From Pseudophaeobacter arcticus DSM 23566 (lineage in GTDB: Bacteria > Pseudomonadota > Alphaproteobacteria > Rhodobacterales > Rhodobacteraceae): a DNA stretch of 64,000 bases. Below the pieces are notes generated by a model. The model was given only the letters and a program-made list of their open reading frames with translations, was not told where the DNA came from and ran no database searches. Shown here one piece after another: positions 4,645 through 62,113 of this stretch. The number at the start of each line of letters is the position of its first letter. Position 1 is the first letter of the stretch. The position numbers and the translations under genes are program-made. The DNA lies in contig NZ_KI421507.1 in assembly GCF_000473205.1 (NCBI RefSeq), forward strand, positions 175,074 through 239,073. Reading direction: 5' to 3'.

Positions 4645-4869
4645 ATGGAGTATCTTGCTGCAATTCAGCTGACTGAAATGATCAGCACCATTGTCTATAC
4701 CATCCTGGGGGTCGCGCTCATGGGGCTGGTCTGGAAGGTCATTGACTGGATAACGCCTTTTCCCATCATGAAAGAGATCGAGCAGGATCAGAACATGGCG
4801 CTGGCGGTGTTGATCGGACTGGTGTTCGTGTCGATCTCTATTATCATTGCGGCTGTCATTGTCTCCTGA
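4645..4869 (+). CDS. DUF350 small membrane protein
   Basis: A 74-residue protein with two hydrophobic helices (about 13-35 and 52-72) joined by a short loop, IMKEIEQDQNMALAVLIG. The E-x-x-Q-N-x-A-x-A-x-x-x-G pattern opening the second helix is typical of DUF350 (the YjfL family in E. coli). DUF350 proteins often occur beside spermidine-synthase-like and PspA-type envelope genes, but their function is unproven. An AGAGGG motif eight bases upstream supports the start. The downstream aminopropyltransferase-like gene overlaps its 3' end. Confidence 0.85.
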   Translation: MEYLAAIQLTEMISTIVYTILGVALMGLVWKVIDWITPFPIMKEIEQDQNMALAVLIGLVFVSISIIIAAVIVS

Positions 4870-6481
4870 CCCGCATTGCGCAACGGCAGCGGAGGCAGGC
4901 GCATCAGCTGACCCGGTTGCGGCGGCCAAATCCCTGCGCCTGCGGGAAACCTGGCTCTTGGTGGCGACCTTTCTGGTGGCTGTGGCGGGCCTTATCTATG
5001 AGCTGATCGCGGCCACATTGTCGAGCTACCTGCTGGGCGATTCCGTGCGCCAGTTCTCGTATGTGATTGGGGTATTCCTGTCTTCCATGGGGTTGGGGGC
5101 CTGGCTGTCGCGCTATGTCGACCGCGCCATGGCGGGCTTTGTCTGGGCGCAGATCCTGCTGGGGGTCGCGGGTGGGTTCATGGCGCCGGCTGTGTTTCTC
5201 AGCTTTGCCTGGATGGAGAGCGTCAGCCTGCCGCTCTACGGATTGCTGGTCACGGTTGGGCTGTTGTCGGGGATGGAGATCCCGCTGATCGCGCGGGTGC
5301 TCAAAGACATTGGTGCACCGGAGTTTCGCTTTGAGAATGTTCTCAGCGTCGATTACATTGGCGCGCTGGTGGCCTCGCTTGCCTTTCCATTGCTGATCAT
5401 TCCACATCTTGGGCTGATGGCCGGGAGCCTGGCCTTTGGGACCCTGAACCTAGGGGTTGCGGGGCTTTCCTTGTGGGTTTTTCGCCGCGATACCAGTCGG
5501 GCTCAGGTGGGGGTCTGGGCAATTGCCCTGCTGGTGACGCTGCTTGCGCTGTGGCAGGCAGAGCGTTTGGTGTCGGTGACGGAGAGCAATCTGTTTGAGG
5601 ATGATATCATCCTCAGCGAAGCCACGCCCTATCAGCAGATCACCGTCACCCGGTATCGCGACCGCACCCGGCTGTTTCTGGATTACTCGATCCAGTTTGA
5701 TAGCCTGGATGAGTACCGCTACCATGAAAGCCTGGTGCATCCGGCCATGGCTCTGGCACCACGGCGCAAATCCGTTCTGATCCTTGGCGGTGGCGATGGT
5801 ATGGCGCTACGCGAGGTCTTGCGCTGGGCTGAGGTCGATAAGGTCACGCTGGTCGATCTGGATCCGCGTGTCACTGCGCTGTTTCGTGACCACCCGGATC
5901 TGTCACAGCTGAACAGCGGATCTCTGTCTGATCCACGCGTCGAGATCAAAAACGCCGATGCCTGGCGCTTTGTTGACGACAGCAGTGCGGTCTATGACGT
6001 CATCTTCGTAGATCTTCCCGACCCCAAGAACCTGGCCCTGTCCAAGCTCTATAGCCGCCAATTCTATGGTGCTCTGGTCGAGCGGCTGAGCGCGCAGGGG
6101 GTTATGGTGACGCAGGCGGGATCGCCGCTTTTTGCCCGCGAAGCCTTCTGGTCGATCAATGCGACCCTGCAGTCCAGCCGCAACCCCCAGGCCCCGGGCG
6201 CGGGGCTTGCGACACTGCCCTATCATGCCTACCTGCCCAGCTTTGGCGATTGGGGGTTTGTACTGGCCAGTCCACAAAAACTGGCCTCGACGCGGCTTGA
6301 CTTGCCGACAGGCCTGCCGACAGATGTCGCCGCGCAGCTGAAATATATTACGCCGGAAGTCTGGCAGGCGGCGCAGGTGTTTGATCCGCAAAGCGGGCCA
6401 GTGCCGGTCGCGGTCAATACGGTGCAATCACATGCTTTGGTTGGCTACTACCTGGATGGTTGGGCGCGTTGGTTTGAGTAG
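4847..6481 (+). CDS. Membrane-anchored spermidine-synthase-like protein
   Basis: 544 residues. The N-terminal half has about six or seven membrane helices (from WLLVATFLVAVAGLIYELI), the extra membrane domain found on some SpeE homologues. The C-terminal half is a class I methyltransferase-fold aminopropyltransferase domain: SLVHPAMAL, the glycine-rich loop LILGGGDGMALREVL at about 310-324, acidic LVDLDP, and FVDLPDPKN, which supplies the conserved Asp. True spermidine synthases transfer aminopropyl from decarboxylated SAM to putrescine. No SAM decarboxylase gene is in the window, so the substrate is uncertain. The start is awkward: the frame opens at a TTG inside the DUF350 gene with no ribosome-binding site, so translation may depend on reinitiation. 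Confidence 0.82.
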   Translation: MRLSLSPDPHCATAAEAGASADPVAAAKSLRLRETWLLVATFLVAVAGLIYELIAATLSSYLLGDSVRQFSYVIGVFLSSMGLGAWLSRYVDRAMAGFVWAQILLGVAGGFMAPAVFLSFAWMESVSLPLYGLLVTVGLLSGMEIPLIARVLKDIGAPEFRFENVLSVDYIGALVASLAFPLLIIPHLGLMAGSLAFGTLNLGVAGLSLWVFRRDTSRAQVGVWAIALLVTLLALWQAERLVSVTESNLFEDDIILSEATPYQQITVTRYRDRTRLFLDYSIQFDSLDEYRYHESLVHPAMALAPRRKSVLILGGGDGMALREVLRWAEVDKVTLVDLDPRVTALFRDHPDLSQLNSGSLSDPRVEIKNADAWRFVDDSSAVYDVIFVDLPDPKNLALSKLYSRQFYGALVERLSAQGVMVTQAGSPLFAREAFWSINATLQSSRNPQAPGAGLATLPYHAYLPSFGDWGFVLASPQKLASTRLDLPTGLPTDVAAQLKYITPEVWQAAQVFDPQSGPVPVAVNTVQSHALVGYYLDGWARWFE

Positions 6482-58515: not shown

Positions 58516-58941
58516 CTAGAAGGCGAAGCATTTCACCCAGGCTGCAGTCATGGCGATATAGGTCAGCTGATGCAGGCATTGATCCGTGCCCATGGCACGC
58601 CAAAAAGAGGCCTGCTGCGGGTTGAGATCTTTCTTTTCAGAGTAATGTGCCTTGCCGTAGTCGATGTGGAAATGGATCACCCATTCAATCAAGCAGATCA
58701 GCAGGATAAATCCGACCGATGCGCCCATGAGCACAAAGACAACAATCGACAGCAGCGCATGAACCCCGGCGTGTTGGGCGCGTCCTGCATGCAGGTATTC
58801 GTCCCGGCCGGATAGCATTTTGGGTGTTTGCAAAAAGAAGTCGGCAAACAGATGTTTGATCTGCAACAGGCAGAGCAAAATCAATACGGATCCGACAAGT
58901 CCTGGCAAGGCATTCCCCTGTGCAAAATACTCTGAAACCAT
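58516..58941 (-). CDS. DUF3307 membrane protein
   Basis: A 141-residue protein with three or four hydrophobic segments (about 13-31, 66-95 and at the C-terminus), containing LQIKHLFADFFLQTPKMLSG and the HAGVHALLSIVVFVLMGASV region, then WVIHFHIDYGKAHYSEKKDL. The spaced H and D residues (KHLFADF, HFHIDYGK) are DUF3307 landmarks. Function is unknown. Longer starts are possible upstream, but this ATG is before the conserved part. It is divergent from the ABC/cNMP gene, with about 121 bp between starts. Confidence 0.82.
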   Translation of the reverse strand: MVSEYFAQGNALPGLVGSVLILLCLLQIKHLFADFFLQTPKMLSGRDEYLHAGRAQHAGVHALLSIVVFVLMGASVGFILLICLIEWVIHFHIDYGKAHYSEKKDLNPQQASFWRAMGTDQCLHQLTYIAMTAAWVKCFAF

Positions 58942-59062
58942 ACGGGTTTTTTGCCATCTGGCAAATACTGTGTAGCAGGGATGCCGTAACGGGACAGTGA
59001 CCTTCATCACAGGAGCAACATTTGCTCTGCCCATTGCCTGTCAGGTGCAAACCGCGCTAGGC

Positions 59063-62000
59063 ATGGGGAACTCTTTTTGCTGCAGCCAAAGTTGGAGCTC
59101 TCCCATAGAACCGTCTCTGTTTCGTTTTATCTGGAAATATTCCAAACGCGACCAAGTGATCCTGCTGATGGTCACCGCCTGTCTGTTCCCGCTGTTATAT
59201 CTCACGCTGGAACTGCCTAAACGGATCATCAATGACGCCATCGGGGCGCAGAGTGACCGTATCGAGCTGCTTGGCTACTCGATTGAAAAACTCGATTACC
59301 TGTGGATACTCTGTGCCGGCTTCCTGATTGCCGTGCTGCTGCACGGGTTGCTGAAAATGCGCATCAATACCATGAAGGGCGTGTTGGCTGAGCGCATGTT
59401 GCGGCGTTTCCGCTACAAGCTGATCGCCCGGGTTCTGCGCTTTCCGCAGCCCTATTTTGAACGGGTAAGCCAGGGTGAGCTGGTGTCGATGATTACCTCT
59501 GAAAGCGAGCCAATGGGGGGCTTGATGGGGGATGCGGTCAGCCAGCCTGTGTTGCAGGCCGGGCAGATGATGACCATCCTGTTCTTCCTTTTCACCCAGA
59601 GCCCCTGGTTTGGGTTGGCTGCGGTGGCACTGATTCCTTTGCAGGGCTGGCTGATCCCGATGCTGCAACGCCAGATCAACCTGCTGAACAAGACCCGTAT
59701 CCATCAGGTGCGGGCGCTTGCCTCTGAGATCGGCGAAAGTGCTGCGGGCGCTGCGACCCTGCGCCTCAATGGTGGCTGGCGCTACCGGATGGCGGCGATC
59801 ACCGATCGGCTGGGGCGCCTGTATGACATTCGCTTTCTGATCTATCAGAAAAAATTCTTCATGAAGTTCCTCAACAACTTCATCACCAATTTGACGCCTT
59901 TCTTTTTTTATTCGGTGGGCGGGTATCTGGTGCTGCAGGGCGAGGTCTCTCTTGGGGCGCTGGTGGCCGCGCTGGCGGCCTACAAAGATCTTGCCTCACC
60001 CTGGAAAGAGCTGTTGGCCTATTACAACCAGACACAGGACATGGGCCTGCGCTGGGATGTGATCCTGGAACGGTTTGCACCTGCGGGTATGGTACGCGAA
60101 GAGCTGATGTCCGGCGAGCCGGAGGAGCTTGTACATCTCAATGGCGATGTCACGCTCAATGGGGTCAATGTGCGGGATGCGGATGGTAATCTGGTGCTGG
60201 AAGACCTGAACGCAACCCTGCCTGCAGGGCGGGTCATTGGTATTGCGGCCCCCTCGGAAGAGGACAGGCGGGCGATGGCCGAGGTGCTGACCCGCGAAGT
60301 TTTACCCGCTGCCGGGCAGGTGATGATCGCAGGTCGAGATCTGCGTGATCTGCATCAGGCGGTGCTGGCGTTGCGCATCGGTCATGTGACGTCGCGGCCG
60401 GTGCTGTTTCAGGGCTCATTTGGCGATAATGTGATGATGCCGATCCGCCAGCGCCCCAAGGGGAGCACACAGGATCCCGAACGGTTTCGCGCCGCACAGC
60501 TTGCGGGCAATAGTGCGGATCCCTTTGATGCTCCCTGGCTGGACCCGGAGTTGGTTGGCTTTGCAACCGAGCATGATCTGCGCGACTGGTGGGTTCAGCT
60601 TCTGGCGGGGATTGGCACGGACAGCGCGCTGTTTCGCCGGGGGATGGAGCAGCGTTTTGACTCCAAGCAACACCCGCGTCTGGCGCAAATGCTGGTTGAT
60701 CTGCGTCCCAAGGTGCGTGCGGCTGTTGCCAAATCGGAGCTGGGCGGACAGGTGCATGGTTTGGCCCCGGATGCCTATAATCCGGCGCTGCCCGTGGTTG
60801 AAAACCTGCTCTACGCGACGCTGAGCGAGCCTATCTCCGAGGCAGTGCTGAGCCAGCACGTAGATTTCCTCCATCGGTTGCGGGAATTGAAACTGGTCGA
60901 TGATCTGGTAGCCCTGACACAGGATGTCGTGGACATCCTGCGGCAGATTTTTGGCATGGATGGCACGGATCACCCATTGTTTCGCAAGTTGGGACTTGAT
61001 CCCAAAGCCTATGAACGGGCCTCGGCCCTGGTTGACAAAACCCGCAGCAAAGGCCCCGAGGCACTGGAGCACGACGAGCTGGCGCAATTGATGATCGTGC
61101 CCTTCAGTATTTCGGCGGAACAGATCGGCCCGGCCTTCACGGATGAAATGAAGGCGCGGATTCTTGCCTTTCGCAAAAGCCACGCGGATGAGCTGTTGGG
61201 AACCCTGTCTGATGTCTTTGTGCGGCTGGACGAGACGAGCTTTGCCCCTGGGCTGACGGTGCTTGAAAACGCGCTATTTGGCAAGATTTCCGACAGCTCC
61301 GGGGCCCGTGGGGATGAGTTGCGGCGGCTGGTCTCGCAGGTTCTGGTCGAAAACGGCGCCCGTGATATGGTGGTCGAGCTGATCTTTGACCTGCCCATTG
61401 CACTGGGCGGGCAGGGGCTGCCGTCCAGCTATGCAGAGCCCCTGGCCTTTGCCAGGGCCACGATCAAGCGACCGGATATCCTGCTTCTGGATGGGGCTTT
61501 CTCAAGCTACGATCTGGACACCCGGATTGCGGTTCATAAGAACCTGCGCCGCCTCTTGCCCAATACCACGCTTGTTTATCTTGAGGCGGCGTTTGAACGG
61601 GCGGATGTGTTTGATGTCTTTTATGAACTGCGCCAGGGCAGATTGGTCAGTGATGACTCACAACAGCAAGTGGTCGAAGATAGCGCTGCCAGTCAGGATC
61701 TGGCGCGCAAGCTGCGGGCATTGGAAGAGACCGAACTGTTTTCGGGATTAAATCGGCGGCAGCTGCGGTTGCTGGCCTTTGGGGCGCGCTGGTATTCAGC
61801 CGAGGCCGGAGATGCGGTTTTCCTGAAGGATGATGTTGCCAGCGATGGTGTCTATATGATTACCGAGGGCAAGGCCGGACTGTTCCTGCCACAAGAGGGG
61901 CAGGCGGATCGCAAGATCACCACGGTTGGGCCAGGCAAGCTGGTGGGGGAGCTGGGTCTCATCCGCAAAGAACCCCGGGCGCTGAGCATGATTGCTGAGA

Positions 62001-62113
62001 CCGAACTAACCTGTTTGCGGATTGGTGAAGAAGAATTCCTGGCCGTGGTCGAAAACGATGCCAATACCGCCTTTAAGCTGTTGCAGGTGGTCTCCGGCTA
62101 CGTTGGAAATTGA
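59063..62113 (+). CDS. ABC-exporter-like protein with degenerate ATPase and C-terminal cyclic-nucleotide-binding domain
   Basis: 1,016 residues from the chosen ATG (a GTG 22 codons earlier is possible). An exporter-type membrane domain (about 30-330: RFIWKYSKRDQVILLMVTAC, QGELVSMITSESEPMGGLMG) leads into an unusually long nucleotide-binding region (about 355-880). The P-loop reads GIAAPSEEDRRAM with no Lys, the signature is LGGQGLPSSYAEPLAFARA, Walker B is ILLLDGAFSSYD (Gly for Glu), and the switch-His position reads VYLEAAFERAD. Two more ABC-like segments, LPVVENLLYATL and LTVLENALFGKI, lie inside a large insertion. The final about 120 residues form a cNMP-binding domain (SDGVYMITEGKAGLFLP, GPGKLVGELGLIRKEPRALS). 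Confidence 0.85.
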   Translation: MGNSFCCSQSWSSPIEPSLFRFIWKYSKRDQVILLMVTACLFPLLYLTLELPKRIINDAIGAQSDRIELLGYSIEKLDYLWILCAGFLIAVLLHGLLKMRINTMKGVLAERMLRRFRYKLIARVLRFPQPYFERVSQGELVSMITSESEPMGGLMGDAVSQPVLQAGQMMTILFFLFTQSPWFGLAAVALIPLQGWLIPMLQRQINLLNKTRIHQVRALASEIGESAAGAATLRLNGGWRYRMAAITDRLGRLYDIRFLIYQKKFFMKFLNNFITNLTPFFFYSVGGYLVLQGEVSLGALVAALAAYKDLASPWKELLAYYNQTQDMGLRWDVILERFAPAGMVREELMSGEPEELVHLNGDVTLNGVNVRDADGNLVLEDLNATLPAGRVIGIAAPSEEDRRAMAEVLTREVLPAAGQVMIAGRDLRDLHQAVLALRIGHVTSRPVLFQGSFGDNVMMPIRQRPKGSTQDPERFRAAQLAGNSADPFDAPWLDPELVGFATEHDLRDWWVQLLAGIGTDSALFRRGMEQRFDSKQHPRLAQMLVDLRPKVRAAVAKSELGGQVHGLAPDAYNPALPVVENLLYATLSEPISEAVLSQHVDFLHRLRELKLVDDLVALTQDVVDILRQIFGMDGTDHPLFRKLGLDPKAYERASALVDKTRSKGPEALEHDELAQLMIVPFSISAEQIGPAFTDEMKARILAFRKSHADELLGTLSDVFVRLDETSFAPGLTVLENALFGKISDSSGARGDELRRLVSQVLVENGARDMVVELIFDLPIALGGQGLPSSYAEPLAFARATIKRPDILLLDGAFSSYDLDTRIAVHKNLRRLLPNTTLVYLEAAFERADVFDVFYELRQGRLVSDDSQQQVVEDSAASQDLARKLRALEETELFSGLNRRQLRLLAFGARWYSAEAGDAVFLKDDVASDGVYMITEGKAGLFLPQEGQADRKITTVGPGKLVGELGLIRKEPRALSMIAETELTCLRIGEEEFLAVVENDANTAFKLLQVVSGYVGN

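Follow-up and report, generated by a model that had tools for sequence, protein, structure and literature searches.

A gene on the forward strand of the marine bacterium Pseudophaeobacter arcticus DSM 23566 (NCBI RefSeq assembly GCF_000473205.1, contig NZ_KI421507.1) encodes a single chain in which the membrane domain of an ATP-binding cassette (ABC) exporter is joined to an ABC fold, itself interrupted by some 270 residues, and to a cyclic-nucleotide-binding (CNB) domain. It was analysed within a 64,000-nucleotide stretch (positions 175,074 to 239,073), hereafter the window. Sequence comparison established this architecture, the loss of the ATP hydrolysis motifs from a conserved protein, a duplication within the insert, a conserved pairing with a CNB gene and the fusion of the two. 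We give roughly even chances to the proposal that the protein is a pseudo-ABC exporter, in which the membrane domain would work without ATP hydrolysis, a nucleotide at the CNB domain would control it and the dead ABC fold would transmit the signal.

Architecture and the lost ATP site

The window protein has the hallmarks of type IV ABC exporters, a six-helix membrane domain and the ABC nucleotide-binding fold, followed by a C-terminal CNB domain (PF00027, E = 2.3e-14); an earlier note made from the DNA letters had described the same arrangement. That note held that the protein cannot split ATP in the usual way and may be a membrane regulator or transporter gated by cAMP or cGMP, an interpretation that the present results support in part. 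The membrane domain and the ABC fold are shared with MsbA, PCAT1, TAP and TM287/288, whereas the window protein lacks a working Walker A motif, the Walker B Glu, the signature and the switch His, and adds the ~270-residue insert and the CNB domain. Its membrane domain also carries family-specific conserved residues, such as K98, E110, E147, E149, P150, K264, K268, and D326.

Motif residues were counted in an alignment of 519 sequences; because many of these are close kin, the counts do not represent independent events. Walker A in clade 1 (the window protein and its relatives, n = 141) is changed at the two counted Gly positions, the Lys and the Ser/Thr in every or nearly every sequence. Arg replaces the Lys in 141/141 and also occupies the following position in 133/141, as seen in Arg402 and Arg403 of the window protein at the Lys and Ser/Thr positions. 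The catalytic Glu is absent from 139 sequences and present in two (P0094 and P0095), the switch His is found in none, and Phe or Tyr replaces the signature Gln in 134; the Walker B Asp is retained in 124. The motif loss reported earlier for this one protein is real and extends through its clade. Clade 2, a paralog also present in the window's genome (49% identity, C6:4061966), has Arg for the Walker A Lys in 141/141 sequences and neither the Glu nor the His in any, and both full-length copies in the host genome lack the motifs. Judged from these sequences, the ATP site has been dead for a long time. Relatives are annotated in several sources as ABC transporter ATPase/permease subunits; given the loss of the motifs for hydrolysis, members of the window clade cannot be ordinary proteins of this kind.

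The ratio of nonsynonymous to synonymous substitution rates (dN/dS) was calculated for five regions against seven relatives. The values were 0.05–0.12 for the membrane domain, 0.07–0.26 for the halves of the nucleotide-binding domain (NBD), 0.10–0.33 for the insert and 0.065–0.126 for the CNB domain. Finite in 31 of 35 cases (about 0.05–0.33) and as a rule lowest in the membrane and CNB domains, these figures are rough because dS is near saturation and four values, three for the CNB domain and one for the insert, are not finite. The membrane domain was the region of highest amino-acid identity in all seven comparisons. The ratio lies far below 1 in each of the five regions, so this is not a decaying gene.

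Family distribution and the CNB partner

The window protein is, by sequence, one branch of a large alphaproteobacterial family whose CNB domain is usually encoded by a separate neighbouring gene. The family survey that the earlier note proposed, run with the insert as query, matched 131 of 385 alphaproteobacterial genomes at E ≤ 0.001 (118 of the 315 good ones); the insert is widespread, and the note had missed the large family around it. A parent query matched 28 of 398 in a phylum sample at E ≤ 1e-60, 27 of them within the class, and any member, including those reduced to the transmembrane domain (TMD), was present in 56 of 246 Rhodobacteraceae genomes at E ≤ 1e-40. One record titled Anaerolineae (L041) holds a family gene almost identical in the tree to an alphaproteobacterial one (L024), probably a binning error.

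The parent group comprised 232 members, 120 listed proteins and 112 loci. Translation of 25 loci that do not belong to the Rhodobacteraceae group (L014–L038) gave 22 proteins of 876–927 amino acids that stop near residue 880, short of the CNB domain. The next gene on the same strand encodes a CNB protein in 97 of the 112 loci, as counted with a profile built solely from fused CNB domains, with a median of 76 bp from the stop to the first domain residue. A first profile sorted the same loci into 96 with an adjacent CNB gene, three with a fused one (L016, L033, and L113), 12 with neither and one at a contig edge. The stand-alone proteins keep the Glu (93/97) and the Arg (97/97) of a motif that we take to be the phosphate-binding cassette. 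The CNB domain is fused in 20/20 clade 1 and 21/21 clade 2 loci, and both cassette residues are kept in 141/141 clade 1 sequences, which bears out the CNB domain recognized in the earlier note. The membrane-domain tree places the fused rows L013, L016, and L033 in neither clade 1 nor clade 2, so there may have been more than one fusion event, a point that this tree does not decide. Pairing across many genera, together with the fusion, provides good evidence that the ABC-like protein and the CNB protein act as one unit. In addition, seven PF00211 cyclase-domain matches in the host genome make the presence of cAMP or cGMP likely.

The ATP site of the parents is altered in another way. The Walker A Lys is retained in 158/232 and is Arg in 60; the Mg2+-binding Ser/Thr has become Asp or Glu in 203, and the Walker B Asp has become Asn (151), Ser (41) or Ala (18), remaining in 16. 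Both Mg2+ ligands are gone in 208 parents, while the catalytic Glu is kept in 176 and the switch His in 120; Lys, Ser/Thr, Asp and Glu occur all together in two (L014 and L016). The Walker B Asp was kept in 8 of 16 parents with the Walker A Ser/Thr versus 7 of 203 with Asp or Glu there (Fisher p = 5.6e-7, uncorrected for kinship). Because the Walker A acid accompanies loss of the Walker B acid, a Mg ligand may have shifted between the two motifs in the parents. An example of the apparent swap is L043:10001-12649; Asn or Ser stands for the Walker B Asp in 192/232 parents.

A TMD-only group of 11 loci (352–471 amino acids) lies on one side of a branch with SH-aLRT support of 100 in a quick tree. 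Conserved polar residues were compared with 111 sampled family rows. All 11 proteins keep K98, N102, E110, R114, R117, E147, E149, Q179, Q194, K264, K268, and D326, positions at which the five ordinary exporters of the host genome mostly differ (E149 is Glu in two). E110, E147, and E149 are conserved at the sequence level in 111/111 family rows and 11/11 TMD-only rows. Since the TMD-only proteins keep most of the polar residues conserved in the family, the membrane domain seems to have a role for which no ABC domain on the same chain is required. Most TMD-only genes sit in copper-related clusters: relatives of cupredoxin, CusF-type proteins and multicopper oxidases are encoded within about 10 kb of 9/11 TMD-only loci and a cytochrome c relative within about 10 kb of 8/11; L165 and L166 have no such neighbours. 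The host genome has a TMD-only copy (L003:1273-2577; C2:143850-145151), whose chain lacks an NBD; the gene is located on a 229 kb contig and is flanked by cupredoxin/CusF and cytochrome c genes.

The insert gave no Pfam match, and no clearly related sequence of solved structure was found. Part of it is a duplicate of the ABC helical subdomain; the internal duplication suspected earlier exists as the likeness of copies R2 and R3 (Table 1). A third copy, R1, is not claimed, its matches to R2 and R3 being too weak: E = 2.3e-4 and 4.9e-5 in the parents (best of 20 shuffles, 0.056 and 0.11) and 0.053 and 0.0019 in clades 1 and 2, where the matches did not exceed the shuffles (0.024 and 0.00063).

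Proposed mechanism and alternatives

In the proposed scheme, the protein would derive from an alphaproteobacterial ABC-like family that works with a separate neighbouring CNB protein, the partner having been fused C-terminally here. A nucleotide, with cAMP as the first candidate, would bind the CNB domain, as the intact cassette suggests. The pseudo-ABC fold with its enlarged helical subdomain would, given its place and conservation, relay the change to the membrane domain, which would open, shut or exchange substrate without ATP hydrolysis, as suggested by the dead sites and the TMD-only kin. With less certainty, the membrane domain may use its conserved charged residues for gated or ion-coupled transport, comparable to the ATP-independent transport by SbmA.

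Several observations weigh against this scheme. Some parents may still bind or split ATP, because many of their motif Lys, Glu and His residues survive. The cassette Glu is Asp in 141/141 clade 2 sequences, which may weaken binding by the CNB domain, and some clade 2 proteins retain a precomputed ABC_tran match. Furthermore, the gene pairing is not absolute, since 12 of the 112 parent loci have no adjacent or fused CNB gene and one more lies at a contig edge. The CNB ligand, by analogy with HetC, need not be cyclic. Finally, neither an SbmA family nor an ion-channel family, including any pore family as in cyclic-nucleotide-gated channels, is among the Pfam matches of the window protein at E ≤ 1.

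The closest characterized ABC exporter with a CNB domain found here is HetC of Nostoc, a peptidase-containing exporter with an essential catalytic ATPase Glu, whose N-terminal part bound ppGpp and was given no thermal protection by cAMP in its authors' assay (PMC10986499). HetC likewise carries an ABC exporter and a CNB domain on one chain, but its CNB domain is N-terminal and it has a C39 peptidase and the essential Glu (PMC10986499), whereas the window protein has no C39 peptidase match in Pfam at E ≤ 1 and has Gly811 at the Glu position. As an analogy, SbmA is the nearest ATP-free precedent: it has the ABC membrane fold with a proposed proton-driven glutamate ladder, and its authors propose that the SbmA/BacA SLiPTs descend from complete ABC transporters that lost the NBD (PMC13316013). 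The membrane fold is common to both, and ATP-free transport, known for SbmA, is supposed for the window protein; the SLiPTs (PMC13316013) lack the NBD and have extra TM0 helices, whereas the window protein keeps a dead NBD, and within its family the NBD is absent from the TMD-only group. On these features, the window protein belongs to neither the HetC type nor the SbmA type.

Structures of SUR2A/B were among the matches to the ABC fold. Sulphonylurea receptors likewise use this fold for regulation, but their NBDs keep nucleotide binding and they are not known to have a CNB domain. Among the listed matches of keyword searches in open-licence PMC papers, none described the present family, which seems undescribed: an ABC exporter fold whose energy source is gone and to which a nucleotide sensor is attached.

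How else the protein could work depends on what the ABC fold and the neighbouring genes contribute. The pseudo-ABC fold might bind ATP or another nucleotide without splitting it and set the state of the membrane domain together with the CNB domain; we regard this as unlikely, as the four Walker A residues counted in clade 1 are changed nearly throughout and the signature Gln is absent. The protein could instead be a membrane receptor with no cargo, which signals the nucleotide level or the state of the membrane to a partner such as the DUF3307 protein or an Rce1-like protease. A divergent DUF3307-cluster gene adjoins the family gene in 20/21 clade 1 loci, and an Rce1-like protease gene overlaps it or lies within 17 bp in 21/21 clade 2 loci, which favours such a role; yet the two clades have different neighbours, whereas it is the membrane domain that shows the highest identity, and we hold the receptor to be quite unlikely.

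The ATPase could also be supplied by an intact ABC half-transporter encoded elsewhere, with the window protein as the other half of a heterodimer. Heterodimeric exporters with degenerate sites are known (PMC7756269). The host genome contains further ABC-exporter-like matches, but no ABC gene adjoins the pseudo-ABC gene within the window, and the motifs are missing from both full-length copies. In ABC dimers, a partner without both the Walker and the signature motifs would spoil both sites, and both are gone here, so a heterodimer is improbable. A decaying relic without function, to which the lost motifs might point, can hardly be reconciled with the low dN/dS and the residues invariant across 141 sequences, both of which contradict it; an internal stop occurs in one row (G939, one TGA) among full-length rows of at least 54% identity.

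The pseudo-ABC exporter reading can be extended to the whole family, although we put this forward tentatively and with some doubt. The family would then be an ATP-free class of ABC-fold proteins switched by a cyclic nucleotide, derived from an old two-gene alphaproteobacterial module that was fused in Rhodobacteraceae, with a near-intact site, swapped Mg ligands, a dead site and NBD loss all extant and with an AUA/AUC start that keeps expression low. If true, it would display the steps from an ATP-driven pump to an ATP-free protein, a transition already suggested for SbmA, and would provide a case of an ABC-fold membrane protein controlled by a nucleotide in bacteria that have several cyclase domains, as this one does; the AUA/AUC start would be a second, easily tested layer of control.

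Start codon, feature map and neighbouring genes

Translation most likely starts at the ATA at 59105, and the gene start of the earlier note, the ATG at 59063, should be moved accordingly. The start position was compared in 43 clade 1 loci, the window and 42 others (L119–L138 and L179–L200; L199 and L200 were included without an identity check against the window). The codon there is ATA in 22, ATC in 18, ATG in three and ATT in none, and it opens a conserved N terminus, I/M-E-x-T/S-L-F-x-F-I-W; in clade 2 the same position is ATG in 21/21. Upstream of this codon, as far as the preceding stop, no in-frame ATG, GTG or TTG occurs in 23 of the 40 non-ATG loci, while one is present in 17, the window included; the same-genus genome L179 has no canonical start matching the ATG at 59063. 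As ATA accounts for 53 of the remaining 1842 Ile codons of these stretches, 22/40 is far from chance (p = 8.6e-24, overstated because the loci are related). Moreover, residue entropy falls from 2.45–4.01 bits upstream to 0.37 at the codon and is below 1 at 17 of the 24 positions that follow. The place of a Shine-Dalgarno sequence is occupied by G at −10 in 41/43 loci and at −11 in 34/43. The next downstream canonical start is at least 17 codons away in 38/43 loci and four codons away in five, so those five could start there.

Because an ATA start codon is weak, synthesis of the protein is probably low. In Staphylococcus aureus, AUA or AUU starts lower the expression of infC, ccpN, and cvfC1 (PMC13009471). 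The likeness lies in an AUA or AUU start with a Shine-Dalgarno sequence; those genes code for IF3, a repressor and a small protein, as opposed to a Rhodobacteraceae membrane protein with AUA/AUC (PMC13009471). The recorded lengths of relatives vary from 973 to 1073 amino acids among the 120 matches listed, and the conserved AUA/AUC start may explain their differing N termini.

Table 1. Features of the pseudo-ABC gene and its surroundings (window coordinates; residue 15 corresponds to 59105, the upstream ATG at 59063 lying 14 codons 5')
Feature	Position	Strand	Remark
Divergent DUF3307 gene	58516..59034	-	Pfam on window copy
GGAG, Shine-Dalgarno-like	59094..59097	+	7 nt 5' of start codon
ATA, probable start codon	59105..59107	+	
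Whole coding sequence	59105..62113	+	likely non-canonical start; 1002 codons + stop
Transmembrane domain, ABC-exporter-type, residues 15-345	59105..60097	+	Pfam PF00664, model
Degenerate NBD, first half, residues 346-460	60098..60442	+	
Degenerate Walker A, residues 396-403	60248..60271	+	Lys->Arg402
Insert within helical subdomain, about residues 461-732	60443..61258	+	
Internal repeat copy R2, residues 568-720	60764..61222	+	first 55 residues resemble R3
Internal repeat copy R3, residues 721-804	61223..61474	+	continues through signature region
Degenerate NBD, second half, residues 733-865	61259..61657	+	
Degenerate signature motif LPSSY, residues 786-790	61418..61432	+	
Walker B Asp810-Gly811	61490..61495	+	catalytic Glu lost
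Ala842 at switch His position	61586..61588	+	
CNB domain and lead-in, residues 885-1016	61715..62110	+	Pfam match 913-999
Presumed phosphate-binding cassette GELGLIRKEPRAL, residues 962-974	61946..61984	+	Glu and Arg each 141/141, clade 1

The Rce1-like assignment of the clade 2 neighbour rests on PF02517 in the host-genome copy, and the Rce1-like pattern of motif residues was found in 18/21 clade 2 loci. In the host genome, the full-length, motif-less paralog (L002:1378-4713) overlaps with its stop the start of the Rce1-like protease gene (4710-5600). Parent loci lie near glycosyltransferase genes, named by Pfam on Azospirillum copies, one single-linkage cluster occurring in 72 and another in 74 of 80 loci (L039–L118), and a Methyltransf_17-type gene lies downstream in 52 of these 80. 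Histidine-phosphatase-like and deacetylase-like genes, both named by eye, also occur near the parent genes in L039–L118.
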